Origin: an uncultured Planctomycetota bacterium
Lineage (GTDB): Bacteria; Planctomycetota; Phycisphaerae; UBA1845; UTPLA1
Reading direction: 5' to 3'
DNA: 56,242 nt
Assembly: GCA_900696465.1 (NCBI GenBank)
Contig: CAADGE010000025.1
Span: forward strand, 1-56,242
Position numbers and translations under genes: made by a program. Under the pieces are notes generated by a model, which worked only from the letters and a program-made list of their open reading frames with translations, was not told where the DNA came from and made no database searches. Within the stretch, counting starts at the first letter, position 1, and each line of letters opens with the position of its first letter. Positions 1-20,651 of this stretch are shown in pieces.

Positions 1-62
1 GACCAGCCACTCGCAGGGCCATCCTGGCCAACGCCTTCGGCGATCGCGTCATGCTTCGTTGA
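1..62 (+). CDS. 3' end of an unidentified gene (partial)
   Basis: The third forward frame is open from the window edge and ends at a TGA at 60-62. It encodes a plausible C-terminus, RRAILANAFGDRVMLR. The other two forward frames give unlikely peptides. Too little is present to name a family, and the piece could be non-coding. It would converge with the ArsR-type gene on the other strand. Confidence 0.35.
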   Translation, partial: PATRRAILANAFGDRVMLR

Positions 63-129
63 GTGCTCATGAGTCATATAACGGCCTTCAATAGGCACAA
101 AGTTGAAGGATTTCTACAGGGCAATCTGA

Positions 130-160
130 AATTAAAAAAAATCCCCCTCGCCATACGCCT
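130..160 (-). terminator. possible weak terminator of the ArsR-type gene
   Basis: Just past the stop of the minus-strand regulator, the minus strand reads a G-rich stretch and then eight T (A run at 134-141). No strong stem is visible before the T tract, so this is tentative. Confidence 0.25.
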
Positions 161-667: not shown

Positions 668-670
668 CAA

Positions 671-708
671 TATGTTCCTCATAAGTTACGTATCTATATC
701 GGAACATA
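671..708 (-). promoter_or_regulatory. candidate operator: inverted repeat upstream of the ArsR-type gene
   Basis: Eight-base arms TATGTTCC (671-678) and GGAACATA (701-708) form a perfect inverted repeat around an AT-rich 22-base centre that contains a TATAGA-like -10 on the minus strand. Placement immediately before the start fits autoregulation by the ArsR-type protein. This is inference; no binding data. Confidence 0.4.
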
Positions 709-738
709 ACAATCCGTGACCACAGACAACCCCCATCC

Positions 739-1695: not shown

Positions 1696-1864
1696 CGTAT
1701 CTCCTCTCGATACCGTAATCGTCGGCCATCATAGCAATTGCCTCCAGCGGCGTCGCGGCTTGTGATTTATCGACGACACCCCATTCATCCCCCTGATGAT
1801 CCTCTGTTATGATAAGTTCCACACCGCGGCAGATAGCCGAGGCCAGACCGACAGGAGGTGCCAC

Positions 1865-3466
1865 ATGCTCATGCCGTACCAGCCCGAGTCCTACGTGAAC
1901 TTCGCGGATCCCGAGCCGCGCCGGCAGATGCTCGAAGCCCTCAAGTGCGTCGAGTCCCAGCTCGGTCGCACTTACCCGCTTCGTATCGGCGGTAAGAAAA
2001 TCGAAACCTCCGCGAAGATCGAATCGCTCAACCCCGCGAGGCCCGAACAGATCGTCGGCTATGTCTGCAAGGCCGGGCAGGACGAAGCCCTTGCCGCTGT
2101 TCAGGCCGCCGAGACCGCCTTCAAGACATGGTCCCGTGTCGCCCCCGAGGCCCGTGCCCGCTATCTCCTCCGCGCCGCCGCCATCATCCGCCATCGCGTC
2201 TATGAATTCTCTGCGTGGATGGTCTATGAAGAATCAAAATCCTGGATCGAGGCCTATGCTGACACCTGCGAATGCATCGACTTTCTCGAGTTCTACGCCC
2301 GTGAGATGATGCGTCTCGGCGGCCCGCAGCCCGTCACGCCCTACCCCGGCGAGGAAAACGAGCTTCGCTACATCCCCCTCGGCGTTGCCGTCGTCATTCC
2401 GCCGTGGAACTTCCCCCTCGCCATCATGGCCGGCATGACCACCGCCGCCGCCGTCACCGGCAACACCGTCGTCTTAAAACCCGCCAGTACCGCCCCCGTC
2501 ATCGCCGCCAAGTTTATCGAAGTCCTCGAAGAAGTAATGCTCCCGCCCGGCGTCGTGAACTTTCTCCCAGGCCCCGGCGGTCAGGTCGGCGACACCCTCG
2601 TCGACCACCCCCGCACCCGACTCATCGCCTTCACCGGCTCGCGCGACATCGGCCTGCGCATCTTCGAGCGCGCCGCCAAAGTCCACCCCGGTCAGATCTG
2701 GCTCAAGCGCACCATCCTCGAAATGGGCGGCAAGGACTGCATCGTCGTCACCGACAAGGCCGACCTCGATGCGGCTGCCGAAGCTGTCGTTGCCTCGGCT
2801 TTCGGCTTCCAGGGACAGAAATGCTCCGCGTGCAGTCGGCTCATCGTCGACGAAAAAGTCCACGCCTCCCTCGTCGAAAAAGTCCTCCAGCAGGCAAAGA
2901 AGCTCACCATCGGCGACCCCGCCAGCCCCGAAAACTACTTCATGGGCGCCGTCATCGACAAGCCCGCATACGAAAAGATCATCAGCTACATCGAAATCGG
3001 CGAGAAGGAAGGTTCGCTCCTGCTCGGCAACACCGCAACGGAGCTGCGTAAAGGTGGAATTGGATCCAATCCGCAATCCGCGATCCGCAATTCGCAATCC
3101 GGCTATTTCATTCCCCCCACCATCTTCGACGGCATCGCCCCCAGTGCCCGACTCGCCCAGGAGGAAATTTTCGGCCCGGTCCTCGCCATCCTCAAGGGTC
3201 GCGGTCTTGACGAGCTGTTGACCATCGCCAATGGCACCGAATACGGCCTCACCGGCGCGATCTTCAGCAACGACCGCGCCGAGCTCGAGCGTGCCCGCAA
3301 CGAGCTCCACGTGGGCAACCTTTACTTAAATCGAAAATGCACCGGTGCCCTGGTCGACGTGCAGCCCTTCGGCGGCTTCAACATGAGCGGCACCGACAGC
3401 AAGGCCGGCGGCCGCGATTACCTGCAGCTCTTCATGCAGGGCAAGAGCATCACCGAGCGACTCTGA
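1865..3466 (+). CDS. aldehyde dehydrogenase, L-glutamate gamma-semialdehyde (1-pyrroline-5-carboxylate) dehydrogenase type
   Basis: NAD-dependent oxidation of glutamate semialdehyde to glutamate is the likely reaction, the second step of proline breakdown. The protein shows the ALDH landmarks in order: VIPPWNFPLAIMAG, the FTGSRDIG cofactor loop, ILEMGGKD, the catalytic cysteine in GQKCSACSR (about residue 320) and QEEIFGPVLAI. The length (533 residues) fits RocA/PutA-type enzymes. No proline dehydrogenase gene is nearby. The start at 1865 is set by AGGAGGTG 4 nt upstream; the frame is open to 1796 without a ribosome site. Oddly, a 12-13 residue stretch around residue 400-413 (SNPQSAIRNSQSG) is encoded by an interspersed repeat, in frame, just before the C-terminal catalytic-fold strand. 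Confidence 0.9.
   Translation: MLMPYQPESYVNFADPEPRRQMLEALKCVESQLGRTYPLRIGGKKIETSAKIESLNPARPEQIVGYVCKAGQDEALAAVQAAETAFKTWSRVAPEARARYLLRAAAIIRHRVYEFSAWMVYEESKSWIEAYADTCECIDFLEFYAREMMRLGGPQPVTPYPGEENELRYIPLGVAVVIPPWNFPLAIMAGMTTAAAVTGNTVVLKPASTAPVIAAKFIEVLEEVMLPPGVVNFLPGPGGQVGDTLVDHPRTRLIAFTGSRDIGLRIFERAAKVHPGQIWLKRTILEMGGKDCIVVTDKADLDAAAEAVVASAFGFQGQKCSACSRLIVDEKVHASLVEKVLQQAKKLTIGDPASPENYFMGAVIDKPAYEKIISYIEIGEKEGSLLLGNTATELRKGGIGSNPQSAIRNSQSGYFIPPTIFDGIAPSARLAQEEIFGPVLAILKGRGLDELLTIANGTEYGLTGAIFSNDRAELERARNELHVGNLYLNRKCTGALVDVQPFGGFNMSGTDSKAGGRDYLQLFMQGKSITERL
3067..3102 (+). repeat. in-frame repeat fragment inside the aldehyde dehydrogenase gene
   Basis: A run of near-copies of ATCCGCAATCCGCA sits inside the coding frame and encodes NPQSAIRNSQS. 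The same kind of wording (AATCCGCAATAAAAATCC; GCGGAATGCGGAATGCGG) occurs in the intergenic repeats at 3545-3723 and 28100-28165. Confidence 0.7.
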
Positions 3467-3544
3467 CTGCCCCCGACGACCCCAGGATTATCTCGACCTG
3501 ATTCAGTCATCGCGGGCAACTCGCCTGCTATAGTATTCAGCAGG

Positions 3545-3723
3545 GGTGGTACGGGCATCCCGCCCGTTCTCCCTTCTGCGCCCCCCGTCGCCACACGCAA
3601 TACTGGATTCGAATGCTTCCCCAATCCGCAATAAAAATCCAAAATCTGAAATGGTGCCGCTCGCGCAGCGAGCCCCCTCCTCTTTCGACTTTTTGACTTT
3701 TTGACGTTTCGACGTTTCGACTT
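3545..3723 (-). repeat. composite interspersed repeat, copy A
   Basis: This fills the spacer between two convergent genes. Read on the minus strand it has four parts in order: tandem GTCGAAACGTCGAAA-like words directly after the topA stop; a palindrome GCTCGCTGCGCGAGC (3659-3673); an AT-rich block with CAGATTTTGGATTTTT; and a hairpin module AACGGGCGGGATGCCCGT followed by ACCACC (3545-3573). The same order occurs on the + strand at 15076-15295. Confidence 0.75.
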
Positions 3724-6700
3724 TTATGAAACCGCCACTTCCCGCAGCAGCCCCGCCGGCGCTTCCATCGTCTTCTTGCACTTCGGATACGCGCTGCAAC
3801 CAAGAAACCGGCCCGTCCGACCCATCCGCAGAAGCATCTTCGACCCGCAGTCCGGACACTTCACGTCCGTCTCGATCGGCTTGGCCCGCGCTTCCTGCGG
3901 TGATTCCGCCTCGGCACGCTTCTTCGCCTCGCCGCGCAGATTCGCCACCGCCTTGCACTTGCCGCACGAATAAAACGGCCCGAACCGTCCCTGTCGCAGC
4001 GTCATCTCACTGCCGCACTCAAAACACGTCAGCGGTTCCTCCGGCCACGTCTCCACCACCGGCCGCCCCGTCAGCGTCCATGCAAAGCCCGGCGGCGGCG
4101 CGCCCAGCGCCTTGACCTCATCCTTCGTCAGTCGCTTCACCTTGCCGCCCGCGCCGCGCGTCTTGGTCGTCCGTGCCCGGCCGTTGGTCCCGCCATTCTC
4201 CGCCGGCGCATCCGGTATCTCGCCCGCAGACTCCTTCCGCTTCAGCTCGTCCAGCTTCTCCATCGGCATCGCGTTGCGACATCGCGGGAACCCCGAACAG
4301 GACAGAAACGGCCCGCGCCGGCTCTTGCGGATCACCATCGCCCGGCCGCACTTGTCACACCGCGCACCGGCGTCCTCCGGCTTCGGCTTCTCCACATACA
4401 CGCCCTCGGGCATCGGCTTCGTCGCCTTGCAGTCTGGGTACTTCGTGCAGCCCAGAAAAGCACGTCCCCGGGCCCAGCGCACCCCCATCGCCGCGCCGCA
4501 GTCCGGGCACTTCTCGTCGATATCCTCGGCCCGGACCTTCTTCAGTGCCACACCGTTGTCATCACACGGCTTCGTGTTGCTGCATTCCGGATAGCCCGTG
4601 CAACCGAGAAAAACCCCGCTCCGGCTCTTGCGCATCACCATCGGCTTGCCGCACAGCTCACACGGCTCGGCCCCCACCACCGGCTCGATCGGCTTGCCGT
4701 CCCGATCGACGTTTCGCGTCTCTTTGCACTCCGGATAGCCCGTGCACGACAGAAATCGCCCGTTCTTCCCCAGTCGATACACCATCGGCTTGCCGCATGT
4801 CCCGCAGGTGTATTCGCTCGGCTCCGCCCGGACCGCGTCCATCTCCTCATGCGCCCGGGCCAGCGACTCCTTGAACGGGTCGTAAAACTCGTGCAGAACG
4901 TCGTGCCACTCCATCTCCCGCTCTTCGATCTTGTCGAGGTCTTCCTCGATGTGGCTCGTGAACCGCACGTCCATGATCTTGGGGAAATGCTCACACAGCT
5001 TGTCCGTCACCACGATCCCGCGCGGCGTCGGATGAAACTTCCGGTCCTCCTGCTCCACGTACCCCCGATCCTGAATCGTCTTGATGATCGCTGCGTACGT
5101 GCTCGGCCGCCCGATCCCCTCGGCCTCCAGCGTTTTGACCAGCGACGCTTCCGTATAGCGCGGCGGCGGCGCCGTAAAGCGCTGCTTCGCATCGATCGCC
5201 ACCGCCGGCGTCCGCTGACCTTCCGCCAGCTCCGGCAGCAGTTGATCCTCGCTGCTCTTCGGCACGCCCAGCACCTTGTAGAACCCGTCGAACGCCAGCA
5301 CCCGGCCGCTCGCCTTGAAGGTCGCAGCGCCGACCTTGGTCGTGGCGGTCAGCAGCACCGTCGTCGAATCCCACTCCGCCGCCGTCATCTGGCAGGCCAC
5401 GAACCGATTCCAGATCAGCGTGTACAGCCGATGCTGCTCGCTGGTCATGTGACCCCGCAGCGATTCCGGCGTTCGTGTCACGTCCGTCGGTCGGATCGCC
5501 TCGTGCGCCTCCTGCGCCGTCTTCTTGCTGCTGTATATGTTCGGCCGGTCCGGCACATAGGTATCGCCGAACTTCTGCGCGATATATTCCCGTGCGTGCT
5601 GCACCGACTCCGCCGAAAGATTCGTTGAGTCGGTTCGCATGTAAGTGATCAGACCGACGTTTCCCTCGCCGGTCTTGATGTCGATGCCTTCGTAGAGGGC
5701 CTGTGCCACCTTCATCGTCTTGCTGGTGGCGAAATGAAGCTGATTCGCTGCTGCCTGCTGCAAGCTCGCCGTCGTAAACGGAGCCGGCGGCTTCGACTTC
5801 GAACGTTTCTTCTCAATCGACTTGACCGAGAACGTCGGCGCCGCCGAAGGGTCGAACCGCCCGACGAACTCAATCTGCTGCAGACCCAGCCGCTCGTACT
5901 GCGCCCAGTCATCCGCCCGTACGGACTCGACCCTGAAGCCCAGCGCTTCCACGATCGGCCGGACTTCCTCGACCGCGCTGATGAACCGCTTGCCTTTACC
6001 CTTTCCGTTGCCCTCTTCCAGCCGCCCCTCAAACTTCGCCGCAGCGCCCTTGATCTCCACCAGCTCCGCGGAAAAACAGCCGTGCTCCCCGAGCCAGCCG
6101 GCCCGCTCCTTCATCGTCCGCCCCGCGCCGGCGCTCTCCTCACCCTCCTCGCCTTCCGTATCCTTTCGCTCGGCGCTGCCCCCGCGCAGAAAGGCCGCCC
6201 ATTCCTTCGACAGTGTCTCTAACTTGGCACCCTCACCCGCGAAGACCCCCGAAACCGACCAGTATTCCTGCGGTTCAAACGCCGCGATCTCACGCTCCCG
6301 GTTCACGACCAGCCGTACCGCGACCGACTGCACCCGGCCCGCCGAGAGCCCCTTGGCCACCTTCTTCCAGAGCAGCGGCGAAAGTTCATAGCCCACGACG
6401 CGATCGAGAATCCGCCGCGCCTGTTGCGCGTCTACCTTCGCTTGGTCGATCTCGTGCGGATGGCTGAAGGCCTCCTTGATGGCACTCTTCGTGATCTCGT
6501 TGAACACCACCCGCCGGATCTTCTTCGCCGGCAGGTCCAACGCCTGCGCCAGATGCCAGGCGATCGCCTCCCCCTCCCGGTCAAGGTCCGTCGCCAGGTA
6601 AACGACGTCCGCGTCCCGCGCCAGTTTCTGGAGCTCGCTGATCGTCTTCTGATGGCTCGGAAGAATCTCGTAAGTCGGCTCGAAGTTCCGACCCGGATCA

Positions 6701-6888
6701 ACCCCGTAACGATGGGGTGGCAGGTCCCGGACATGCCCCTTCGACGCCCGGACGACGTAATCCGAGCCCAGATACTTATTGATGGTCTTCGCCTTGGCCG
6801 GAGACTCAACGATCACCAGAGACTTGCCCGAGCCCGCTGGCTCAGGCGATGCCCGGTCCGTGCTGGTCTTCCGACTCTTTTTCGCCAT
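3724..6888 (-). CDS. topA: DNA topoisomerase I (type IA) with six C-terminal zinc fingers
   Basis: Relaxes negatively supercoiled DNA by cutting one strand through a 5'-phosphotyrosine. The Toprim domain opens with SLVIVESPAKAKTINKYLG, followed by the acidic cluster LATDLDREGEAIAWH. The active tyrosine is in GLITYMRTDSTNLS (about residue 415), and the IGRPSTYA motif follows. After residue ~690 there are six Cys4 zinc-ribbon units of the form CxxCGxxM...FLxCxxYPxC, more than the usual three or four, which explains the 1054-residue length. A charged insertion (KDTEGEEGEESAG) near residues 240-265 is also unusual. The stop abuts the interspersed repeat at 3545-3723. Confidence 0.97.
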   Translation of the reverse strand: MAKKSRKTSTDRASPEPAGSGKSLVIVESPAKAKTINKYLGSDYVVRASKGHVRDLPPHRYGVDPGRNFEPTYEILPSHQKTISELQKLARDADVVYLATDLDREGEAIAWHLAQALDLPAKKIRRVVFNEITKSAIKEAFSHPHEIDQAKVDAQQARRILDRVVGYELSPLLWKKVAKGLSAGRVQSVAVRLVVNREREIAAFEPQEYWSVSGVFAGEGAKLETLSKEWAAFLRGGSAERKDTEGEEGEESAGAGRTMKERAGWLGEHGCFSAELVEIKGAAAKFEGRLEEGNGKGKGKRFISAVEEVRPIVEALGFRVESVRADDWAQYERLGLQQIEFVGRFDPSAAPTFSVKSIEKKRSKSKPPAPFTTASLQQAAANQLHFATSKTMKVAQALYEGIDIKTGEGNVGLITYMRTDSTNLSAESVQHAREYIAQKFGDTYVPDRPNIYSSKKTAQEAHEAIRPTDVTRTPESLRGHMTSEQHRLYTLIWNRFVACQMTAAEWDSTTVLLTATTKVGAATFKASGRVLAFDGFYKVLGVPKSSEDQLLPELAEGQRTPAVAIDAKQRFTAPPPRYTEASLVKTLEAEGIGRPSTYAAIIKTIQDRGYVEQEDRKFHPTPRGIVVTDKLCEHFPKIMDVRFTSHIEEDLDKIEEREMEWHDVLHEFYDPFKESLARAHEEMDAVRAEPSEYTCGTCGKPMVYRLGKNGRFLSCTGYPECKETRNVDRDGKPIEPVVGAEPCELCGKPMVMRKSRSGVFLGCTGYPECSNTKPCDDNGVALKKVRAEDIDEKCPDCGAAMGVRWARGRAFLGCTKYPDCKATKPMPEGVYVEKPKPEDAGARCDKCGRAMVIRKSRRGPFLSCSGFPRCRNAMPMEKLDELKRKESAGEIPDAPAENGGTNGRARTTKTRGAGGKVKRLTKDEVKALGAPPPGFAWTLTGRPVVETWPEEPLTCFECGSEMTLRQGRFGPFYSCGKCKAVANLRGEAKKRAEAESPQEARAKPIETDVKCPDCGSKMLLRMGRTGRFLGCSAYPKCKKTMEAPAGLLREVAVS

Positions 6889-7602
6889 TACAATCCTAAC
6901 TATCTGCTAGAGATACGTTTACGCTACTGACTGGCTTCGATCACCGCAAACAGCACACCTTCGCCGAAAACTTCGACGTATATCGGCAGCCCTTCCGACT
7001 CAATCGATGAACCGTGCCATCCAAACACTGGCACGACGATTCCTGCCCCCAAGAAAGCGTCGAAAACCTAGCAGCACCCCCCGGCCAAGTCAAATCACAG
7101 GCCGATTTGGCGCATTTGCAAGGTTGGCACAGGAGTCCCGTCCGTCTTTACCCTTGCACGCACTCAATTCCACATTCCTCATTAAACTGGCTCACAAAGC
7201 GAATTCCATTCCACTCTCTTCGATCTGGAGCTCCATCTGCTCTCCAATTCCTGTTACGGGCAATAGTTGCGCTCGGGTGAAGTCTCGTTCAAACCCGGTT
7301 TCCAGCACTGTCAGCAAGCTGTGAGTTCCTGTGCGAAAATCGAATGATCACAACCGCGATGACGCCCCAACTCGAAGCCCATCTTCCGCCGATACCCTCA
7401 CGGAATTGCGTATACCGTGGTTTCATTTCACATGTGTGAAGGATGTCACAGGCATGCGATGTCTTTATAATCAGGACCTGCATACACCCACGGGGATTTC
7501 TGCCGAACCGATGTTCGGCTGGCTTGTATCAATCTGAGAACGGTCCTACCGCGGTGCGCCGCGCCGCGCTCGCCTTGTTCACTCTGTTCTAAGGAGTCCT
7601 TC
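6889..7602. other. 714-base gene-free stretch; lies at the start of the GC-skew switch
   Basis: No frame looks coding and no RNA gene was recognised. The stretch is lower in GC than its surroundings and strongly C-biased on the + strand (7141-7200: 22 C, 6 G). Its right part holds the inverted repeat at 7427-7440 and a TATAAT at 7466-7471. No copies of the DnaA box TTATCCACA were seen by eye. Confidence 0.5.
7427..7471 (+). promoter_or_regulatory. candidate promoter and operator of the metalloprotease gene
   Basis: TTCACA and TGTGAA form an inverted repeat with a 2-base centre (7427-7440). It lies 25 bases upstream of a consensus -10 box TATAAT (7466-7471). No good -35 box is found at the right spacing, which would fit a promoter that needs an activator bound at the inverted repeat. 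Inference only. Confidence 0.4.
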
Positions 7603-10428
7603 ATGTACCCTCGTCTCTGGATCGCCGTCGTCTTCTTGCTCGGTCTTGCCGCTCACGCCAGCGCATCGGAAACCGAGCGTACACCCCCGCCTCAGGTCGA
7701 CATCGATAAGGCCAAGGCCGCCGCAGAGGACAAGAAAGACAAGCCCGAGTTCCCGCCCTTCGAAGAGGTGATGAAGGATTTCGAGCAGGTCAAGACCGCC
7801 GAGACCCCATTCATTCCTCTCTGGTACAACAAGAAATCGGATTCGCTTCGGGCACAGATTCCGGCCAGTCTCATCGGTCCCAAGTTTCTGATCGCGACGA
7901 GCATGGCCGGCGGCCCGGTCGCCACCGGCTTCCAGCTCGATCACTTCCTCGCCTACTTCGAGCGGATGGACAAGAACCTCGTGCTGATGCGCGTGGACCC
8001 GCGCTACGTCGAGGGCGGCGATCAGCCCGTCGCCGATGTCATTAAGCGAACCTACGGCGGCGATGAAATCCTCCGCAGCATCCCGATTGTGACGATGAAA
8101 GGTGCGGATGCGATCATCGATCTCGACGGTGTCTTCAAGGGCGACTTCTCCGGAATCAGCGAATGGGGCCTCGGACAGGTCAACCCGCAGCTCTCAAAAT
8201 GGGCCAAGTACAAGGCCTTCCCGCAGAATCTGGAACTGTCCGTCGATCTGGCCATGATGCGCCGCGGCGTCGGTCGGCGAATGCTGTTCCACTACAGCAT
8301 TTCGCAGATTCCCGAATCGGCCAAGGGCTACAAGCCGCGCGTCGCGGACAACCGCGTCGGCTACTTCATGACCGTCCGCAAGGACTGGACCAAGCAGCAC
8401 GATGCCCCGACGCTCTTCGATCGCTACATCAACCGCTGGCGGCTTGAGAAGCGCGATCCGTCGGCCCGGCTCAGCGCCCCCAAGCATCCGATCGTGTGGT
8501 ACATCGAGAAGACGGTACCGCTCAAGTACCGCCGCTGGGTGAAGGAAGGCATCCTCGAATGGAACAAGGCCTACGAAAAGTGCGGCTTCCTCGATGCCAT
8601 CGAAGTCAAGCAGCAGGAAGACTACGACCCCGATACCAAGGATCTCGACCCCGAGGATGTCCGCTACAACTTCTTCCGCTGGATCGTGACCGGCAATGCG
8701 TTCGCCATGGGTCCGTCGCGCGATCATCCGCTGACCGGTCAGATCTTCGATGCCGACATCGTCTTTGACGATTCGATGGTCCGCCATTACGTGGCCGACT
8801 ATGCCCGTCTGACCGGCAACGAGGATTCGTGGGACGCTTACAACCCGTACATCGAGTCTTTCTTCCGCGCGCACCCGCAGTGGAAGTTTCGAACGCCCTG
8901 GCAAAACCTGCTGCCCGGTATCCAGCTGTCCGAGGACCCCGAGCAGGAGTTCCGGATGAACCTGATGAAGCACATGCAGCGGCGCGGCCGGCCGGTCTGT
9001 GAGTGCGCCGCAGGCATGACGCACCAGATTCAGTTCGCCTGCCTGGCGCTGGAAGCCCAGGGCCTGGCCCGCGACGATGAGGACTTCATCGGGCAGGTGG
9101 TCAAGGAAGTGGTGATGCACGAGGTAGGCCACTGCATCGGCCTGCGACACAACTTCAAGGCCAGCACCTGGCTGCCGATGGAGGAGATCGAGAAGCACCG
9201 CGAGGCCGGCGACGCCAATGTCGGCTCGGTTATGGATTACAACCCGCCGATCATCGCCCCGCGCGGAACCGAGCAGGGCTCCTACACGACCCGCTCGATC
9301 GGCCCGTACGACTACTGGGCGATTGAATACGGCTATCGCCCGGTCGGCGAACCGTACAAGAGCGAGGAGGAAATGCTGAGCAAGATCGCGACCCGCGTGG
9401 CGGAGGCCGGTCTGGACTATGCGACCGACGAGGACACGATGTCGTTCCTCTCGCCGGATCCGCTTTCCAACCGCTTCGACATGGGTCGCGACGTACAGGA
9501 ATACGCCCGCCGGCAGATCACGCTGACGGACTCGCTGCTCGAAGACATCACGAGCTGGGCGGTCAAGGACGGTCAGTCCTACACGCGACTGCGACGGGCT
9601 TTCACGCGGATTCTCGGTGAGCGGGCCCGGGTGACGGACTTCGTCGCCCGGTTTGTCGGCGGACAGATCATGAACCGCGATCAGCGCGGCGATCCGGACG
9701 CGCGGCCGCCGGTGAAGGTGGTCGACGGCAAGGAGCAGCGGGCGGCGCTGCAATTCGTTTGCGATAACGTGTTCAGCGAAAGTGCCTACCAGGTGTCACC
9801 GGAACTGCTCTCGCACCTGGCGCCGGGCCGTTTCTGGCACTGGGGCTCGGACGAGTTCGACATCCGGGTCGACTTCAACATCCACGACTTCGTGATCAAC
9901 TCACAGTACCGCTGCCTTTTCACGCTGATGAATCCGTTCACGATCGGGCGGATCCACGATAACCAGGTCAAGTTCACCGAGGACCAGGAGGCCTACACCC
10001 TCGCCGAGCACATTACCGACCTGGCCGACGCCATCTGGTCGGAACTGGACGACAAGGACCGCACCGGCTCCAACGCCAAGCCCTACGTCAACAGCTTCCG
10101 CCGGAATCTGCAGCGCGAGCATCTGAACCTGCTGCTGCAACTGATCCTGTCAGAACCGGGCGGCATGGTCCCGGCGGATGCCAACGCCATCGCCCGTCTG
10201 ACGGCCGGCAAGCTTTCCGGGAAGATCGCCAAGGTCATGAAGGGGGGTAAGCTGGACGTGGCGACCGAGGCCCACCTGTCGGATGTCAAGACGCGGATCG
10301 ACAAGGCCCTGGAGGCCCAGTACACCCTGGGCGGCCGGGGAATGTCGGCCATGGACTTCTTCTGGTTCTTCCGCCAGCCGGAGTCCGGCCCCGCTTCGGA
10401 GCCGGTGAACGTGCTTCCGAACCACTGA
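7603..10428 (+). CDS. large secreted zinc-dependent metalloprotease (DUF5117/DUF4953-like)
   Basis: A signal peptide (MYPRLWIAVVFLLGLAAHASAS) directs this 941-residue protein out of the cytoplasm. Residues ~85-300 resemble the DUF5117/5118 region that precedes the catalytic part. The zinc site is HEVGHCIGLRHNF at about residue 506, a HExxHxxGxxH metzincin-like signature, followed by SVMDYNPP, which fits the methionine turn. The C-terminal ~300 residues are helical and match the DUF4953-type tail. TAAGGAGT lies about 7 nt before the ATG. Substrate is unknown; a periplasmic or exported peptidase role is likely. It appears to be monocistronic, with its own upstream signals and a terminator-like hairpin after it. 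Confidence 0.85.
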   Translation: MYPRLWIAVVFLLGLAAHASASETERTPPPQVDIDKAKAAAEDKKDKPEFPPFEEVMKDFEQVKTAETPFIPLWYNKKSDSLRAQIPASLIGPKFLIATSMAGGPVATGFQLDHFLAYFERMDKNLVLMRVDPRYVEGGDQPVADVIKRTYGGDEILRSIPIVTMKGADAIIDLDGVFKGDFSGISEWGLGQVNPQLSKWAKYKAFPQNLELSVDLAMMRRGVGRRMLFHYSISQIPESAKGYKPRVADNRVGYFMTVRKDWTKQHDAPTLFDRYINRWRLEKRDPSARLSAPKHPIVWYIEKTVPLKYRRWVKEGILEWNKAYEKCGFLDAIEVKQQEDYDPDTKDLDPEDVRYNFFRWIVTGNAFAMGPSRDHPLTGQIFDADIVFDDSMVRHYVADYARLTGNEDSWDAYNPYIESFFRAHPQWKFRTPWQNLLPGIQLSEDPEQEFRMNLMKHMQRRGRPVCECAAGMTHQIQFACLALEAQGLARDDEDFIGQVVKEVVMHEVGHCIGLRHNFKASTWLPMEEIEKHREAGDANVGSVMDYNPPIIAPRGTEQGSYTTRSIGPYDYWAIEYGYRPVGEPYKSEEEMLSKIATRVAEAGLDYATDEDTMSFLSPDPLSNRFDMGRDVQEYARRQITLTDSLLEDITSWAVKDGQSYTRLRRAFTRILGERARVTDFVARFVGGQIMNRDQRGDPDARPPVKVVDGKEQRAALQFVCDNVFSESAYQVSPELLSHLAPGRFWHWGSDEFDIRVDFNIHDFVINSQYRCLFTLMNPFTIGRIHDNQVKFTEDQEAYTLAEHITDLADAIWSELDDKDRTGSNAKPYVNSFRRNLQREHLNLLLQLILSEPGGMVPADANAIARLTAGKLSGKIAKVMKGGKLDVATEAHLSDVKTRIDKALEAQYTLGGRGMSAMDFFWFFRQPESGPASEPVNVLPNH

Positions 10429-10471
10429 TCGGACGGTACTTTGGGGGCTGTATCCGGTCGCTCACGATCAG

Positions 10472-10508
10472 ACAGGCCCGGGACGCCGATGCGGTGTTCC
10501 GGGCCTGT
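10472..10508 (+). terminator. rho-independent terminator-like hairpin after the metalloprotease gene
   Basis: A perfect 10-base stem ACAGGCCCGG / CCGGGCCTGT with a 17-base loop, followed by TTCATT. The T tract is short, so termination efficiency is uncertain. Confidence 0.5.
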
Positions 10509-10690
10509 TTCATTGGGTCGCCCGGTCGAAAAATGACCGGGGATGATGCGTCAGAAAAGTCGAATGAAGTTCTCCTCTCCCGGCTTGACATGGCCGCTGG
10601 CAAGATAAGAGAATTGTCAGTCGCAGCGTTCTGATGAATCACAAGGCAGCGGTCATCAATTTTCGCGAACCATCGAGCGGTCACAGAGAA

Positions 10691-10718
10691 TTGACAGGCA
10701 GATAACCGCCGCTATTGT
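10691..10718 (+). promoter_or_regulatory. sigma70-like promoter for the DUF2007-type gene
   Basis: A consensus -35 TTGACA (10691-10696), a 16-base spacer and TATTGT (10713-10718) lie upstream of the start at 10854, leaving a leader of about 130 bases. The word AGAGAATTGACAG that contains the -35 box has a near-copy, AGAGAATTGTCAG, about 80 bases upstream. This could be a second binding site. Confidence 0.5.
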
Positions 10719-10853
10719 GCCGGCGCGGCTCGCCGTTCTGACGGGCGGCGTAACGTGCGAAATGCCGATGCAAGAGGGTGCAGCCCGGCAGCGGCCTTGA
10801 TCGCACGTCGTGGATGAACTTGCCATCCCTGGGACAGGCGAGGAGTGGACGTC

Positions 10854-11258
10854 ATGATGGATGAAACAATGGGACCCTCAAACACGATGAACTGCACGGG
10901 TGAGAAGGACTTTGTCGAGGTAATGTTTGCCCGATCGATGCCGGAGGCGCGGGATTTTGTCAGCTACCTGCTGGAGCAGGAGATCCCGGCCCGTCTGGAG
11001 AATACGGGTGGCGCGGTACCGGCCTGCGGGGTGGCGGTGCTGGTGCCGAGCGATCGAATGATCGAAGCGGCCGAACTGCTGGCGGCACGGGCGGACGCAG
11101 AAGACGATTCGGAGGAGGTCGAAGGCGAGGAGGAATTCGACGATCTCGACGATGACTATGACGACGAAGAAGACGAAGACGACGAATTCGACGATGATGA
11201 TGATGAATTCGGCGACGACGACGAAGAAGAGGAGTTCGAAGAGGAAGACGATATCTGA
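10854..11258 (+). CDS. DUF2007-type putative signal-transducing protein with a very acidic tail
   Basis: Residues ~15-75 resemble the small DUF2007 fold: FVEVMFARSMPEARDFVSYL, then an EIPARLENTGG and VAVLVPSDRMIEAAELLA pattern. The last ~50 residues are almost wholly Asp and Glu (such as DDYDDEEDEDDEFDDDDDEF), giving an extreme negative charge. I set the start at the ATG at 10854, with GAGGAG 8 nt upstream; a GTG at 10845 overlaps that ribosome site. The next gene, 48 bases on, encodes a strongly basic protein. Molecular role is unknown; the tail could bind cations or a basic partner. Confidence 0.7.
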   Translation: MMDETMGPSNTMNCTGEKDFVEVMFARSMPEARDFVSYLLEQEIPARLENTGGAVPACGVAVLVPSDRMIEAAELLAARADAEDDSEEVEGEEEFDDLDDDYDDEEDEDDEFDDDDDEFGDDDEEEEFEEEDDI

Positions 11259-11306
11259 TCGTCGACACAACGCGAAACGCCTGCCGAACAAGGAAGGACA
11301 TCGGCC

Positions 11307-11642
11307 ATGACAGAACACACGCGGGGCACGGAGCAGGCGGTCACGGCGACGTCGGCAGGCGCGGAGCGCCGGACGGGGGTGGATCGGCGTTCGTCGGTGG
11401 TGGACCGCCGGGGCGGTCTGGAACGCCGCCGGGGACCGGGTCTTCGCCGGAGCGATTCGCGTCGCAGCGCGGAAGAGGGCGAAATGACGCCGGAGCAGTT
11501 CGAATTCGTCATGGCGATGGACGAATACAAGCGGGCCAACAAGAAACCCTTCCCGAGTTGGACCGAGGTTCTGGAAGTGATAAAATACCTTGGCTACCGT
11601 AAGGTGGCGGACGTGAGCGAGCACGTGGACCGGACGGAATGA
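11307..11642 (+). CDS. small arginine-rich conserved hypothetical protein
   Basis: This 111-residue protein has two parts. Residues ~20-50 hold degenerate repeats of a RRxGxDRR type (ERRTGVDRRSSVVDRR and on to GLRRSDSRRS), giving a high positive charge. Residues ~55-105 (MTPEQFEFVMAMDEYK, PFPSWTEVLEVIKYLGYRKV) look like a compact helical domain that I recall from planctomycete small proteins without a known function. AGGAAGGA lies 8 nt before the ATG. It is probably co-transcribed with the acidic protein upstream. Confidence 0.7.
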   Translation: MTEHTRGTEQAVTATSAGAERRTGVDRRSSVVDRRGGLERRRGPGLRRSDSRRSAEEGEMTPEQFEFVMAMDEYKRANKKPFPSWTEVLEVIKYLGYRKVADVSEHVDRTE

Positions 11643-11743
11643 CTCGTCGTGGCTGCGTGGCCCGTCGGATTCGCGACGCTTGCGGGCTGGTCGAGATGTG
11701 CATGCTCGGCGGATGAGGGCTCCGATTTGTTCGTGAGGCCGTT

Positions 11744-12400
11744 GTGCTGGCCGAAGGTTATCAGGTCGTCGATGTTCTGATGCTGGTGGGGAATCTCCTG
11801 CCGCTGTCGCTTTATTTCCTGATTCTGGGATTGGTCAATTCACACGCCCGGCCGTGTCTGATCACGAGCCGCTCGGACTTTCTGGTGCTGACCAGCGTGC
11901 TGGTACCGGTGCTTCTGTGGCCGGTGCCGGACCTTGTGCGCGGGCAGATGTATCACTGGCTGGGGGCGATTCTGCTCTTTGCCGCCGCGATCTTTTTCTA
12001 TCTGCTGCCGGCGCGGGACGCCGGTTTTGTGATTTACAACCTGACGCAATCACGCTGCCGGCGGCTGCTCGACCATGTTTTCGAACGGATGGGCCTTTCC
12101 GGTCGCTGGCTGGGCAACACCTGGCGCGCCGACGGACTCGAATTGTCGCTGGAGCTGCGGGAGTTCTCGCTGCTCTCGAACGTCTCGCTGCACTTCGAGT
12201 CGGGGGACGCAGGGGCGCGATCACGGATCAACGCGATCGGTTCGGAGCTGGATCGCCGGCTGGACGCGATCCGCCGCCTTCCTTCGAACATGGGGATCGG
12301 GCTGGTGATGGCGGGGATCACGCTGATGATCCTTCCGATGTGGATGGTCGGGCGACATATCCACGACCTTGTCGACGCGATGCTTCATCTCTTCGGTTGA
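11744..12400 (+). CDS. membrane protein of unknown function
   Basis: The 218-residue product has four hydrophobic segments: roughly residues 10-30, 45-62, 70-90 and 185-205. A soluble ~90-residue part lies between the third and fourth (SRCRRLLDHVFERMGLSG, LELSLELREFSLLSNVSLHF). The start is GTG with GAGG 6-7 nt upstream; no ATG nearby is better placed. I do not recognise a family. The last 180 bases overlap, tail to tail, with the minus-strand gene at 12221-12952. Confidence 0.6.
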   Translation: MLAEGYQVVDVLMLVGNLLPLSLYFLILGLVNSHARPCLITSRSDFLVLTSVLVPVLLWPVPDLVRGQMYHWLGAILLFAAAIFFYLLPARDAGFVIYNLTQSRCRRLLDHVFERMGLSGRWLGNTWRADGLELSLELREFSLLSNVSLHFESGDAGARSRINAIGSELDRRLDAIRRLPSNMGIGLVMAGITLMILPMWMVGRHIHDLVDAMLHLFG

Positions 12401-12952
12401 ATCGGACCTTGCCTGAGCGGATTCTGCCCTGTATCGCGGATCGGCCGGGGCGGTCTCGATGTGGGTACCGGGGACGCATTTCCTGTCGTCGAAATCGGGT
12501 GACGAGGCCTCAGGGTGAACGCCGGGGGCTTTGGTTTCGCGGGGGACGAGGTTGCCGGTCCTGATGTCAAAGCCGTAGATATCGGCGACGGCCTGGTCGA
12601 GCAGCTCGCAGAATTCGGCATGGGAATAGGGGTCGCCGTCGGGGCGGCGTCCGTAGGGCGCAGCCGGGTCTTCGAGATCGGCCGGATTGACTTCCGACGA
12701 AACCCGCTGCGCGGCGCGGACACGCTGACGAGCCGCGGCAAGACCGGCATCGATTTTCTTTTCGAGCAGATCGAGTTTGCGGCGATCGAGTTCGAGCTTG
12801 CGCTCGGCGCGCAGGTCGGCGGCGATCTTCAGAAAATCAGCCACGAGCTTGTCGCGGCGCTTCAAGTCGATCTGCGGATCGGCAAGTTCGCCGTGCAGTT
12901 GACGGATGATCCGGTCTCGCGTTTCGCCGAGTTGATGCAGGGTTTCTTGCAT
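12221..12952 (-). CDS. coiled-coil hypothetical protein
   Basis: The N-terminal ~85 residues are a charged, heptad-like helix (DLKRRDKLVADFLKIAADLR, ERKLELDRRKLDLLEKKIDA), followed by a looser middle (PYSHAEFCELLDQAVADIYG). A near-ideal ribosome site, AAAGGAG, lies 6 nt before the ATG, which supports a real gene. The final ~60 residues (HPHRKDHQRDPRHHQ) are antisense to the membrane-protein gene and look like low-complexity overlap sequence. The true protein may end earlier if the assembly has a frameshift here. No function can be assigned. Confidence 0.55.
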   Translation of the reverse strand: MQETLHQLGETRDRIIRQLHGELADPQIDLKRRDKLVADFLKIAADLRAERKLELDRRKLDLLEKKIDAGLAAARQRVRAAQRVSSEVNPADLEDPAAPYGRRPDGDPYSHAEFCELLDQAVADIYGFDIRTGNLVPRETKAPGVHPEASSPDFDDRKCVPGTHIETAPADPRYRAESAQARSDSTEEMKHRVDKVVDMSPDHPHRKDHQRDPRHHQPDPHVRRKAADRVQPAIQLRTDRVDP

Positions 12953-13503
12953 GGGCGGCTCCTTTCATGGCTGACGAGCGATCACGTGCAGCGCTGCATT
13001 CTTTGCTGCTTCGCGTGTCGGCACGCTGACACTCAGGATGTTCTATAGGTCACGTTTTGCGGAGTGGCAAATCGAGGAGGCCGACTTTTTTTGCACGATT
13101 GACTGATGTCGCGTGTCGGTCGGAGGTTGGGGCAGAAAGAAAAATTCCGGGCTACGCAGCCAGCGAGCAAGCCCGGCTGGAAGCCGCCGTGAAGATCAAT
13201 CTTCTGCATTCATCGGCTGACGCCAGGGGCAAGGAACTTTCCGGCTAAGGTGGTTCCCGGGCTGCCGGACGGTGTCGTTGTGATTCGGCATCAGCCCACG
13301 GCATACCTGCCGTGGGCTTTGGATCGTCGTGAGCTTTGTATCGTCCACGGATGCAAAAAACGCTCTAATGGCCGGACGCAAGCGCGGAACGCGGAAGCGG
13401 AACTGGTGCTGCCGTTGCTACGCGGAAGGCAATACGGGCGGGGCATCCGTAAGCTGTAGCAGCAATGGCGCGATACGCCTGGAAACTGTTCTTCTGCATC
13501 CGA
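12953..13503. other. 550-base spacer with a strong hairpin and possible structured RNA
   Basis: No convincing gene. A perfect 11-base stem AGCCCACGGCA / TGCCGTGGGCT with a TACC loop lies at 13293-13318, followed on the + strand only by TTGG. The stretch 13140-13260 has several short complementary pairs (CCGGGC/GCCCGG around 13148-13175). It could be a folded RNA, but it fits no class I know. 13375-13400 has GCGGAACGCGGAAGCGG, a likely decayed piece of the interspersed repeat. Confidence 0.4.
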
Positions 13504-15063
13504 TCAATCCTGGGGCGTGTTCTGTTCGTCGATCGGCGGATGAAGCTGCACATCGTCTGCGGGTGTGAAATCAGGCGAGGAGAGTGCATCTGAAAACGAC
13601 TCGGGCTGCAACTCGGCGGGAACTCCGCTGCCTGGATCGGCGGGAAACTTGCTGACGGGATCCATCGGCGCGGCTGCACTTGAACGGGATCGCCTGCGCG
13701 GGGCGCGTCGGCCTTCGCGGACATCTTCATCGAACTGGCGTTTTCGACGCAGCAGGTGGTGGTAGTGCTGTGCGAAACGATGGGCTTCGTCGCGGACCTG
13801 TTGGAGCAGGCGGAGGCCGTCGTCGTTGCGCGGCAGGCGAATCGGACCCTTTCGGGCCTGGGTGTAGATTTCTTCCTCTCGCTTGGCGAGTGAGATGATC
13901 ATCGGCGGCTTTACGAACATCTCACCGCAGGCCTCGATGGCGGCGTGAAGCTGACCGAGCCCGCCGTCAATGAGGATCAGATCGGGGTAGAGTTCTTCGC
14001 CTTCAGCGGCGTGGCGATAGCGGCGGGTAATGACCTCGCGGATCATGGCGTAGTCGTCCTGCCTCTCGACGGTGCGAATGCGAAAGCGTTTGTAGCCGGC
14101 TTTGAAGGTCAGGCCGTCGATGAAGCAGACCAGCGCGCCGACGGACTCCTCGCCCTGGAGATTGGCGATGTCGAGTCCTTCTATGATGCGCGGCGGACTT
14201 TCGAGATCGAGGATTTTGGCGAGTCTTTCTAGCCCTTTGCGGGGGTCGATGTGGTGGTAGAAGGCCTCGGGCTGAATGTCTTCATCGGGGCTGCCGGACA
14301 GCTTGAGTGACTGTATGGCCTTGATTCGGTCCCGGACGCGGGCGGCTTCTTCGAAGTCCATCCTTTCGGCGGCGGCTTTCATTTCCTTTTCCATTTCGCG
14401 GATGGCGACGCTGCGCTTGGAGCCGAGAAATCGCCGGAGGCGCTCAATGTCGCGGCGGTAGTCTTCGCGGGAAATCTTGTCGGCACAGGGGGCGGTGCAT
14501 TGGTTGATGGCGTAGAGCAGGCAGGGACGGAAGAAACGCCGCTTGTCATCGTCGGCCAGGATTTCGAGTTCGCAGGTACGAAACTTGTAGACTTTCTGGA
14601 GTGCGTTGACGGCATCGCGCAGGGCACCGGCCGAGGTGAAGGGGCCGTAGAGCTTGCTTCCCCTGGCGCGCGGGGTACGGGTGACGAAGACGCCGGGGAA
14701 GTCGTCGCCGGTGGTGATTTCCAGATAGGGAAAGGTCTTGCCATCCTTGAGCATGGCATTGTGCGGCGGCTGGATGTCCTTGATGAGCCGGGCTTCGGTG
14801 AGCAGTGCGTCGACCTCGGTTTCACATTCGAGGAAGTCGATGTCGACGACCTTGACGATCATGCGGGCGATGTCGGGACCGCGGGTGTTGAGCAGGTCTG
14901 CGGCATCCTGAAAGTATGACGCGACACGGGAACGCAGGTCCTTGGCCTTGCCGATGTAGAGGACGATTCCCTTTTCGTCCTTCATGAGGTAGACGCCGGG
15001 TGTCTTTGGAAAGAGGGCGATCTTTTCGCGAAGCCGGCGGAGTCGATCGGCGTGGTCGTGCAT
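13504..15063 (-). CDS. uvrC: UvrABC excinuclease subunit C, lacking the usual HhH domain
   Basis: Makes the two incisions flanking UvrB-bound DNA lesions in nucleotide excision repair. The N-terminal GIY-YIG nuclease is intact (TPGVYLMKDEKGIVLYIGKA). The central UVR motif (REMEKEMKAAAERMDFEEAA) that contacts UvrB and the RNase H-like 5' nuclease with its acidic/His residues (LDIANLQG, LILIDGGLGQL, RDEAHRFA) are also present. The protein stops at 519 residues. Where a helix-hairpin-helix pair (the LDEIPGIG type) normally follows, there is a Pro/Ser/Asp-rich tail instead. No ribosome site precedes the ATG. A TACAAT sits at 15070-15075 on the minus strand, close enough for a leaderless mRNA. Confidence 0.93.
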   Translation of the reverse strand: MHDHADRLRRLREKIALFPKTPGVYLMKDEKGIVLYIGKAKDLRSRVASYFQDAADLLNTRGPDIARMIVKVVDIDFLECETEVDALLTEARLIKDIQPPHNAMLKDGKTFPYLEITTGDDFPGVFVTRTPRARGSKLYGPFTSAGALRDAVNALQKVYKFRTCELEILADDDKRRFFRPCLLYAINQCTAPCADKISREDYRRDIERLRRFLGSKRSVAIREMEKEMKAAAERMDFEEAARVRDRIKAIQSLKLSGSPDEDIQPEAFYHHIDPRKGLERLAKILDLESPPRIIEGLDIANLQGEESVGALVCFIDGLTFKAGYKRFRIRTVERQDDYAMIREVITRRYRHAAEGEELYPDLILIDGGLGQLHAAIEACGEMFVKPPMIISLAKREEEIYTQARKGPIRLPRNDDGLRLLQQVRDEAHRFAQHYHHLLRRKRQFDEDVREGRRAPRRRSRSSAAAPMDPVSKFPADPGSGVPAELQPESFSDALSSPDFTPADDVQLHPPIDEQNTPQD

Positions 15064-15075
15064 GGTCGTATTGTA

Positions 15076-15295
15076 GCGGGGAGAAGCGGCGAAACGTTAA
15101 AAAGTCGAAACGTCGAATGAGGAAGGGGCTCGCTGCGCGAGCGGTACCTTTCAGATTTTGGATTTTTGATTTTGGATTGGGGAAGTAATCGAATGCAGGA
15201 CTGAGGAAGGCAGCGGTGCGAGGTAAGGCAAACGGGCGGGACGCCCATACCACCGTGTTGCCTGCATCGACGGGCGAGACGCCCTTACCATCCTG
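15076..15295 (+). repeat. composite interspersed repeat, copy B (fullest)
   Basis: In order on the + strand: GAAACGTTAAAAAGTCGAAACG; GAGGAAGGGGCTCGCTGCGCGAGC with its palindrome at 15128-15142; TCAGATTTTGGATTTTTGAT with TTGGATTGGGGAAG; and two copies of a hairpin module (15228-15254 and 15264-15292) of the form ACGGGCGGGACGCCC followed by a TACCACC-like end. It occupies nearly all of the spacer between the uvrC start and the next gene's stop. Confidence 0.8.
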
Positions 15296-15350
15296 AGGCG
15301 AACAGATATGTTGCCTGCACCGCCCACTTGCAGAGTTCGGACGGTCGGGG

Positions 15351-17831: not shown

Positions 17832-18108
17832 GCGAGCAAACCTCCGCTCATTTCTTCGGACGGATCGGCGATCAACTGCCGTAACGGGTCATCGCGCATC
17901 GCGGCCGAACGTTCATCACTCTGACCGGGTCCGTGGCGTTTTTTATATGACGCCGAAACAGGGATGCCGACCGTCTGTCGGGCGGGCAGTGTATGCGGGC
18001 CCCACCGGTCCCGTGGTGCAAGCGGCGTCGCCCCCCTCGCATGCGGCGCGGACACTTGCGGATTGATGCACTTTATTATTGCGGAACGTGGACAGGCGGT
18101 CAAGGAAA

Positions 18109-20486: not shown

Positions 20487-20488
20487 AA

Positions 20489-20556: not shown

Positions 20557-20651
20557 CAGATCACAAGCCGTCCAATGATGAGGGCGGAATGGGCGGCGGT
20601 GGTACTGCGTCACCCACGATGGAGGTACGGCCGCAGGGATGATCGAGCGGA

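Follow-up and report, generated by a model that had tools for sequence, protein, structure and literature searches.

A gene-independent polarity switch in GC skew within a Planctomycetota contig: a candidate relocated or additional chromosomal origin

In the window analysed here, contig C25 (56,242 nt) of an uncultured Planctomycetota bacterium, the + strand changes from strongly C-rich to strongly G-rich around 7.6–10.7 kb. The switch follows position and is found in place within its gene block, polar repeats flip with it, and a second dnaA cluster lies elsewhere in the genome. On balance, we favour the view, with clear reservations, that this stretch is a chromosomal origin, either a single site or a zone of about 3 kb from which forks have long diverged, and probably the main origin of the lineage, relocated or added.

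The genome (G000) is a 48-contig draft of 4.14 Mb, of which about 19% was sampled for skew; contig C28 consists of N letters and hence gave no value. In 1-kb steps, GC skew of the window ranged from −0.14 to −0.24 at 1–7 kb, was −0.15 at 7–8 kb, lay between −0.05 and +0.06 at 8–11 kb, and reached +0.11 to +0.25 at 11–32 kb. A single change point was placed at 8,940 (2ΔlnL 477; 10-lnL support 7,686–10,581), and the raw cumulative skew had its minimum at 10,218. After normalisation to relatives, cumulative skew went down until about 7.6 kb, stayed almost level to about 10.7 kb and then went up.

At fourfold-degenerate sites, skew left of 7.6 kb was −0.70 in the one + strand gene and −0.53 in the three − strand genes, while at 10.4–33 kb it was +0.49 and +0.59 in ten + and eight − strand genes, respectively. 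The corresponding values were +0.39 and +0.34 at 33–50 kb and +0.15 on both strands at 50–56 kb. Between 10.4 and 33 kb, +0.37 or more was observed in 16 of 18 called genes; the exceptions were 12515–13045 (+0.01) and the small ORF 18301–18687 (−0.52), which shares sequence with a − strand gene and was probably called in error. Skew of intergenic DNA was −0.22 on the left, +0.14 at 10.4–33.8 kb and +0.09 farther right. Within the protease gene spanning the switch, successive thirds yielded −0.34, −0.13 and +0.11, and none of 20,000 permutations of the order of the 39 genes matched the observed split. The strand-independent reversal described in the sequence-only reading was therefore confirmed, with the same sign on both gene strands and in intergenic DNA, and proved stronger than noted there; its four base counts (32 C/13 G, 22 C/6 G, 13 C/27 G and 18 C/29 G) were exact, and the direction, C-rich to G-rich, is that expected at diverging forks.

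Table 1. Coordinates of the features discussed, in positions of the window
Feature	Position	Strand	Basis or remark
Left arm, C-rich + strand	1..7602		1-kb skew; fourfold sites
Transition zone with polarity switch	7603..10700		Zero crossing at about 9.2 kb, read off protease thirds
Right arm, G-rich + strand, bias weakening with distance	10700..56242		Fourfold sites
First candidate site, gap of 714 bp flanked by the topA and protease genes in divergent orientation	6889..7602		Similar gap size in relatives
Second candidate site, 416-bp gap 3' of protease gene	10429..10844		Gene-free
Strong terminator-like hairpin just after protease stop codon	10467..10513		Inverted repeat of 22 nt, 82% complementary
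topA, DNA topoisomerase I	3724..6888	-	TIGR01051, 855 bits
Zinc metalloprotease gene (DUF5117 + DUF4953 Met-zincin), across the switch	7603..10428	+	PF16313, 245 bits; PF17148, 75 bits
dnaA paralogue 1 (dnaA1), orphan, without adjoining dnaN	24416..25897	+	TIGR00362, 420 bits
DnaA-box-like cluster 5' of dnaA1, away from the switch	24134..24242		4 sites at up to 2 mismatches from TTATCCACA
Polar repeat copy: ACGTCGAA octamer array, GCTCGCTGCGCGAGC hairpin, AT-rich tail	3645..3733	-	
Polar repeat copy	15094..15200	+	
Octamer array alone	20488..20503	+	
Polar repeat copy	21793..21855	+	
Polar repeat copy, dnaA1/folD interval	25898..25950	+	

Comparison with relatives included the congener G002 and two single-contig genomes of another genus, G003 and G014. 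In sampled pieces of G001, G002, G010, G003 and G014, an orthologue was found in at least one relative for 17 of 21 window genes, with tblastn matches of 45% identity or more retained. Orthologues of left-arm genes had a mean skew of +0.08 (6 gene–genome pairs) compared to −0.53 in the window, and those of the 10.5–33.6 kb genes a mean of +0.04 (sd 0.27, range −0.43 to +0.62; 30 pairs) compared to +0.57. For topA, the seven relatives measured gave fourfold skews of −0.13 to +0.45 against −0.50 in the window. The block at 3.7–12.4 kb was collinear in G001, G002, G003 and G010, and no comparable switch was observed at this locus in the relatives aligned. Since the orthologues are close to zero and the gene block is intact in switch-free relatives, the switch arose in place. 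In G003 and G014, the block showed weak raw skew of its own, negative on the left side and positive at 10.4–11.3 kb (−0.14 to +0.14), so that inheritance or coding accounts for a small part of the pattern.

The polar octamer-hairpin repeat followed the same polarity. All seven exact GCTCGCTGCGCGAGC copies of G000 were located in C2, C21 and C25, small contigs amounting to 1.76% of the genome, as were 10 of the 15 copies at up to one mismatch; all of these 10 follow the local skew, with the flip falling between 3.7 and 15.1 kb. From bias and repeats together, C2 and C21 would be predicted to adjoin the left end of C25. When the G-rich strand was taken as leading, octamer arrays agreed with skew at 13 of 14 loci in sampled G000 and at five of the six scored in G002 (seven found), loci with local |skew| below 0.05 being set aside (1 of 7 in G002, 1 of 2 in G014).

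In favour of an origin, the zone of strong bias stands out within the genome: outside C25, C2, C21 and C6, none of 63 sampled 10-kb bins (bins with at least 400 fourfold G+C sites; at least 120 for the skew profiles of G000 and its relatives) reached |0.4|. Certain observations count against an origin. TA skew was about zero in most gene groups, the exceptions being the left + strand gene (+0.32) and the protease gene (+0.19), both with few sites; the classic C-to-T signature is thus absent. The bias was not maintained across the remaining sampled genome. Moreover, C6 carries no copy of the hairpin repeat despite its strong bias.

Under the origin reading, forks would have diverged left and right from 7.6–10.7 kb over a long time in this species, and may still do so; strand-asymmetric mutation at these forks would, at neutral sites, enrich the + strand in C on the left side and in G on the right side, whichever way genes point. 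The fading of right-arm bias within about 50 kb would be explained most simply by frequent inversions resetting polarity farther out, whereas close to the origin most inversions would take the origin along and polarity would be kept. Since other family members have their minimum near dnaA-dnaN-gyrB, a locus distinct from this site, the origin was probably relocated or added in this lineage.

An ordinary oriC near dnaA was considered and rejected. The skew minimum of G003 and of G014, and with less clarity that of G015, sits near dnaA-dnaN-gyrB, and in this genome that cluster, with the other dnaA, lies on contig C35. The sequence-only reading had correctly placed a dnaA gene to the right of the switch, but this gene is an orphan paralogue. 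Two gene-free stretches had been proposed there as origin sites; the left one stood as drawn, while the right one is in fact 10,429–10,844, wider than the 10,509–10,690 given. Judged by the E. coli-type consensus alone, neither contains a DnaA-box cluster: the left gap holds one box-like site with one mismatch, and the right gap no match to TTWTNCACA at up to one mismatch. No marked AT-rich stretch that might serve as an unwinding region was apparent at the switch, the lowest 60-bp GC content at 6.8–11.0 kb being 0.40, at 6,867. The hairpin region at 10455–10530 had a z-score of −3.44. The box-like cluster 5' of dnaA1 was rejected as belonging to the switch, being about 14 kb off and within a uniformly G-rich stretch; similar sites occur in several of 11 relatives.

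Nor, in the sampled part of this draft, does the window minimum seem to be the only one. C35 has its own C-to-G switch at about 229 kb, approximately 11 kb from the gene cluster, after which skew declines to negative by about 318 kb, and an exact TTATCCACA lies upstream of the cluster. It is therefore possible, if unlikely, that the working origin is this locus, like elsewhere in the family, and that the window switch marks an origin now abandoned or seldom used, with its bias still present; the minima of G003 and G014, and less clearly that of G015, near the same dnaA would fit. The amplitude on C35, however, is only about −0.2/+0.3 compared to −0.6/+0.6 in the window, and an abandoned origin would be expected to lose its bias on one side, whereas both sides of the window switch are equally strong.

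The switches on C25 and C35, which are separate draft contigs, would also fit a chromosome with several origins, the window site being one of them. This account overlaps with the origin reading and appears rather unlikely; neighbouring forks would meet at varying places, producing abrupt C-to-G rises with slow declines between. A full tooth of this kind was observed in G002, with +0.6 at 1.01 Mb, a fall that reached about −0.6 shortly ahead of 1.191 Mb and then +0.5, as were further rises near 1.92 and 1.965 Mb; contig C1 of G002 has several C-to-G switches in all. Counted with 6-kb sides and a minimum size of 0.35, sharp steps numbered two up and none down among 176 positions in G000, and six up and one down among 215 in G002. 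However, the G002 stretches had been picked around sign changes, with the result that rises are over-represented, and the two-domain genomes likewise gave rises alone with 4-kb sides (G014, three up and none down of 81; G003, one up and none down of 74); since they do, and numbers are small, the preponderance of rises carries little weight. Furthermore, sampled G000 has one zone of strong bias alone, G003 and G014 have the appearance of ordinary two-domain chromosomes, and many G002 rises coincide with dispersed repeats and may reflect rearrangement or misassembly there.

In one G002 repeat family, 11 of 12 testable copies (13 listed) lay at rises; the family had, however, been found via rises. 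After removal of the discovery copies, five of six remained at rises. Among intergenic segments with at least three partners, 14 of 19 testable ones in G002 were at upward steps (mean +0.20), and three of seven in G000 (mean +0.07). The idea that every G002 repeat is an initiation site is thus a lead only. Sequence comparison yielded nothing common to the window switch and those of G002 or C35.

A broader version, which we regard as quite unlikely, would have the genus give up strict single-origin replication at dnaA-dnaN-gyrB in favour of several sites and a eukaryote-like sawtooth of strand bias, with the octamer-hairpin repeat as a mark of fork direction, or an aid in setting it, around the strongest site, and the sister genus keeping one ordinary origin.

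It is improbable that C25, C2, C21 and perhaps C6 form a separate replicon, either a second chromosome or a large plasmid, that has the switch as its origin. The confinement of strong bias to these contigs in the sampled 19%, and of the exact hairpins to three of them, would suit such a replicon, but C25 carries prs, topA, uvrC, dnaA1, folD, murD and two tRNA genes, and the 3.9-Mb sequence of G003, a single contig, also includes topA, uvrC and dnaA1. In addition, the repeat at the left end of C25 is common to C3, C17, C27, C34 and C43, and bias is already down to +0.15 at the right end. A junction or misassembly of oppositely biased pieces, or a coding or transcription effect, is very improbable: the window is a mosaic of several-kb blocks relative to G002, skew anomalies at repeats may reflect assembly errors (PMC7111523), and the block in G003 and G014 has weak raw skew of the same sign, but the switch runs gradually along a single gene within an intact block and a repeat-free vicinity, the repeats at 3.7 and 12.55 kb of the window lie at block borders without sign change, and the bias is equal on both gene strands and also intergenic.

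In this one family, some genomes have an ordinary minimum near dnaA-dnaN-gyrB, while in the sampled parts of the genus studied here the strongest minimum lies elsewhere, at places that differ between two species. Origins are usually bound to the neighbourhood of dnaA and slow to relocate. The family offers a natural series for how origins move or multiply, and repeats that flip at the switch give separate access to fork direction at the level of sequence.

When compared with known systems, the favoured origin at 7.6–10.7 kb resembles a DnaA-dependent bacterial oriC in the local, gene-independent change of the + strand from C-rich to G-rich. It differs in the absence of a DnaA-box cluster of the E. 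coli-type consensus, in lying away from dnaA-dnaN-gyrB, in a position not conserved in the tested relatives, and in a right-arm bias of only about 50 kb. The G002 sawtooth has the shape of human replication N-domains, in which skew rises abruptly and declines slowly. Those domains are described as extending over megabases (PMC3320577), whereas the G002 teeth span about 100–200 kb. In cyanobacteria with multiple or DnaA-independent origins, as outlined in PMC7198777, two-domain skew is likewise lost in some lineages and kept in others, and the dnaA locus lies apart from the skew switch; skew there is described as irregular or collapsed, whereas here it is very strong near the switch and both dnaA genes are retained. 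Architecture imparting sequences are short and oriented with replication (PMC5993296), as is the 8-bp sequence favoured on the presumed leading strand here; they are reported to grow commoner toward the terminus, whereas the exact hairpins are confined to strong-bias contigs, around the switch. The repeats also resemble the intergenic hairpins of REP/REPIN palindromes (PMC6006769), although these usually exceed 100 copies per genome, compared to seven exact copies and 15 at up to one mismatch here, about 10 of them in one zone. IS200/IS605-type elements are described as using the lagging-strand template (PMC6006769, PMC3733652, PMC2817692), and insertion of this kind would therefore tie repeat orientation to fork direction.

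GC skew in 1-kb steps ranged from -0.14 to -0.24 at 1-7 kb of the window, from -0.05 to +0.06 at 8-11 kb and from +0.11 to +0.25 at 11-32 kb, and the four base counts cited in the sequence-only reading were all exact on recount. At fourfold-degenerate sites the contrast was far larger than in raw skew and equal on both gene strands. With the same sign on + and - genes and with concordant non-coding DNA (-0.22 left and +0.14 right of the switch), the reversal is, as had been claimed, independent of gene strand. Fourfold skew was at least +0.37 in 16 of the 18 called genes of 10.4-33 kb; the exceptions were the gene at 12515-13045 (+0.01) and a small ORF at 18301 (-0.52), which is probably a wrong gene call. 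Genes were called by a small codon-model script with a training set of 18 genes with family matches, and individual small ORFs may be wrong. None of 20,000 gene-order permutations matched the observed split. The polarity switch in the window is genuine and strong.

The switch was placed at 8,940 by a single-change-point fit (2 delta lnL 477; 10-lnL support 7,686-10,581). Skew in successive thirds of the protease gene was -0.34, -0.13 and +0.11, and cumulative skew minus that of 12 aligned relatives ran down to ~7.6 kb, stayed near-flat to ~10.7 kb and then rose, with its lowest point at 8,944; the switch is therefore a ~3-kb zone over one gene. Both gaps named earlier as candidate sites, 6889-7602 and 10509-10690 (the latter measured here as 10,429-10,844), flank this zone.

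Features of the window, with fourfold skew by gene strand and positions in the congener G002
Feature	Position in window	Fourfold skew, + genes	Fourfold skew, - genes	Position in G002
Terminal repeat	1-132			
Left of switch		-0.70 (1 gene)	-0.53 (3 genes)	
Block	0.7-3.5 kb			3.08 Mb
Block with topA and protease gene	3.7-12.4 kb			2.75 Mb
topA	3724-6888 (-)			
Protease gene	7603-10428 (+)			
Right of switch	10.4-33 kb	+0.49 (10 genes)	+0.59 (8 genes)	
Block	13.7-20.3 kb			1.06 Mb
HEAT-repeat protein	15351-17831			
DnaA-box-like site cluster	24134-24242			
dnaA1	24416-25897 (+)			1.55 Mb
Block	26-29 kb			2.71 Mb
Farther right	33-50 kb	+0.39	+0.34	
MurD-like protein	49687-51513			
Right end	50-56 kb	+0.15	+0.15	
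Acetyl-CoA hydrolase/transferase	53875-55851			

Among other features of the window, the ~130-bp terminal repeat is common to the ends of contigs C3, C17, C27, C34 and C43 and is an assembly break point. The 826-aa HEAT-repeat protein lies beside uvrC and has a weak receiver-domain match, below cut-off. The MurD-like protein has an N-terminal extension of ~130 residues (MurD match 135-607 of 608), and the acetyl-CoA hydrolase/transferase is apparently fused to a GNAT acetyltransferase domain.

The draft genome G000, of which the window is one entire contig (C25), comprises 48 contigs and 4.14 Mb and is 96.8% complete. About 19% of it was sampled, not at random: contigs C2, C21 and C6 were examined further for their conspicuous starts or motif polarity. 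None of the 63 ten-kb bins outside these three and C25 reached |0.4| (mean 0.14, maximum 0.37), and strong skew elsewhere in the sampled DNA was confined to C2 (-0.62), C21 (+0.62) and, where sampled, C6 (-0.47, -0.35).

In 15 of 17 family genomes, G000 included, topA (-) and the protease gene (+) are close divergent neighbours, and the block at 3.7-12.4 kb is collinear in G001, G002, G003 and G010. Outside this block the window is a mosaic, its pieces scattered in G002. The switch falls within the intact block, and no comparable switch was found at the topA/protease locus in the relatives compared; a rearrangement junction or an inherited pattern was rejected on these grounds. Fourfold skew of topA was -0.13 to +0.45 in the seven relatives measured, against -0.50 in the window. 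Orthologues of 17 of the 21 window genes were found in sampled pieces of one or more of five relatives; those of the left arm averaged +0.08 (6 pairs; window -0.53), those of 10.5-33.6 kb +0.04 (30 pairs, sd 0.27, range -0.43 to +0.62; window +0.57) and those of the protease -0.18 (5 pairs; window -0.11). As the orthologues lack the window's bias, the bias belongs to the position. Raw composition in G003 and G014, single-contig genomes of one other genus, was weakly negative on the left (to -0.14) and positive at 10.4-11.3 kb (to +0.14), and a small part of the window pattern is therefore older or coding-related.

Two dnaA genes are present in G000. The one noted earlier to the right of the switch (dnaA1) is indeed there, but it stands alone; a canonical dnaA2-dnaN-(160 aa)-gyrB cluster occupies C35:217332-223231, with dnaA2 at 217.3 kb (TIGR00362, 476 bits) followed by dnaN (TIGR00663, 268 bits) and gyrB (NF011501, 986 bits), and an exact TTATCCACA upstream. 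At least two DnaA matches were found in 55 of the 61 genomes searched in the order. C35 has a weaker switch of its own, with fourfold skew of -0.20 to -0.26 at 198-228 kb, +0.20 to +0.34 up to 268 kb and ~-0.2 by 318 kb.

Samples of G014 and G003 formed two skew domains with the C-to-G change near the dnaN-linked dnaA (position 1 and 2.2185 Mb, respectively), the border being resolved to some tens of kb and values near dnaA being weak; off-sign samples occurred at 4.15 Mb of G014 (+0.14) and 0.576-0.596 Mb of G003 (+0.10). The family's usual origin thus most likely lies near dnaA-dnaN-gyrB, not at the window locus. In the first 1.64 Mb of another relative, G015, raw skew was negative in 21 of 24 rows to 1.33 Mb and positive in 5 of 6 beyond, with the dnaN-linked dnaA at 1.485 Mb; at fourfold sites only 1 in 6 rows beyond 1.33 Mb was above zero, and the minimum near that dnaA is suggestive only. 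Upstream of dnaA1, DnaA-box-like sites cluster with AT-rich DNA. Since such sites occur at a similar distance from dnaA1 in several relatives, the cluster probably serves autoregulation or as an accessory origin.

Diverging forks expose opposite strands on either side of an origin, and lasting strand-specific mutation leads to a change in the sign of skew. Forks diverging from the 7.6-10.7 kb zone would, through such mutation, leave the DNA C-rich on the left and G-rich on the right. Fourfold sites were 79-87% G+C and had TA skew of ~0 in most gene groups (exceptions: left + gene, +0.32, 47 sites; protease, +0.19, 59 sites), so deamination alone does not account for the mutational step. Inversions best explain why the bias fades over ~50 kb: close to the origin most would include it and keep polarity, and farther out they would not. 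Most probably the switch is an origin that the species of G000 uses now or has long used. Of the possible origin proposed at 7500-10800, this much stands; the locus is not the ordinary dnaA-linked oriC and is not used as an origin by the relatives tested.

The same local shape would be expected if replication started at several origins and the forks met at variable points, which would also account for the C35 switch and the sawtooth skew of G002. In the gap-free stretch of G002 at 950-1,210 kb, skew was -0.5, then ~0 at 978-1,010 kb and +0.6 at 1,012 kb, and fell slowly through zero to ~-0.6 just before 1,191 kb, with +0.5 past 1,195.7 kb; skew also rises near 1.92 Mb and near 1.965 Mb. Single genes at C1:960-1200 kb of G002 reached 0.8 fourfold skew, and the bias along this stretch climbs abruptly at dispersed intergenic repeats and declines slowly. 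Sharp steps (at least 0.35, 6-kb sides) were upward at 2 and downward at none of 176 positions in G000, and upward at 6 and downward at one of 215 in G002, where the single fall, at the topA/protease gap, is probably a coding effect. In G002, sides of 8 kb gave 7 rises and 3 falls among 208 positions, and sides of 4 kb 10 rises and 2 falls among 249; with 4-kb sides the two-domain genomes, too, showed no falls, only rises (G014 3 of 81, G003 1 of 74). The excess of rises in G002 is partly built in, because its regions were picked for end samples running from negative to positive.

A dispersed intergenic repeat lies at many G002 rises. Skew goes up at 11 of its 12 testable copies, by +0.35 on average (466 control positions: -0.06), or at 5 of 6 when the copies from which the family was found, themselves at rises, are left out; in a wider repeat set it goes up at 14 of 19, with a mean of +0.20. 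For these rises, rearrangement or misassembly at repeats has to be taken seriously as an alternative (compare skew anomalies at repeats as possible assembly errors in PMC7111523). It does not apply to the window switch, because no G002-type dispersed repeat was found there. The equal strength of the two sides of the window switch makes an abandoned origin less likely.

Intergenic repeats of C25, C2 and C21 are built of an array of the octamer ACGTCGAA and a short, GC-rich hairpin (GCTCGCTGCGCGAGC), and most copies also have an AT-rich tail; folding of the whole hairpin element is no stronger than that of shuffled sequences (z of about -1.1 to -1.2). All seven exact genome-wide copies of the hairpin 15-mer lie in these three contigs (72.9 kb, 1.76%), as do 10 of 15 copies with up to one mismatch (reversed control, 7). 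All ten are aligned with local skew; among the five elsewhere, only the C5 copy is in sampled DNA, where skew is ~0. The biased contig C6 has no hairpin copies, and relatives show no clear excess over control (G001 3 against 7, G002 5 against 4, G010 5 against 2). Repeat direction in the window changes from - at 3.7 kb to + at 15.1 kb; the midpoint of these positions, 9.4 kb, is near the skew zero at ~9.2 kb. Octamer arrays were concordant with skew at 13 of 14 loci in sampled G000. Of 7 found in G002, 6 were scored and 5 agreed; of 2 found in G014, the one scored agreed; none was found in G003. Among the 5 scored hits of 12 shuffled octamers, 2 were concordant. Because ACGTCGAA has equal G and C, its orientation is not a product of GC skew. 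The polar repeats may be functional, or mobile elements inserting by fork direction, as PMC6006769 describes for lagging-strand-targeting IS200/IS605 elements.

In the open-licence literature, where silence is weak evidence of absence, no title among the matches listed concerned relocated or multiple origins in Planctomycetes, and nothing matched on dnaA and the chromosomal replication origin in Phycisphaerae. Among bacteria, the published precedent for multiple origins combined with irregular skew comes from cyanobacteria (PMC7198777).
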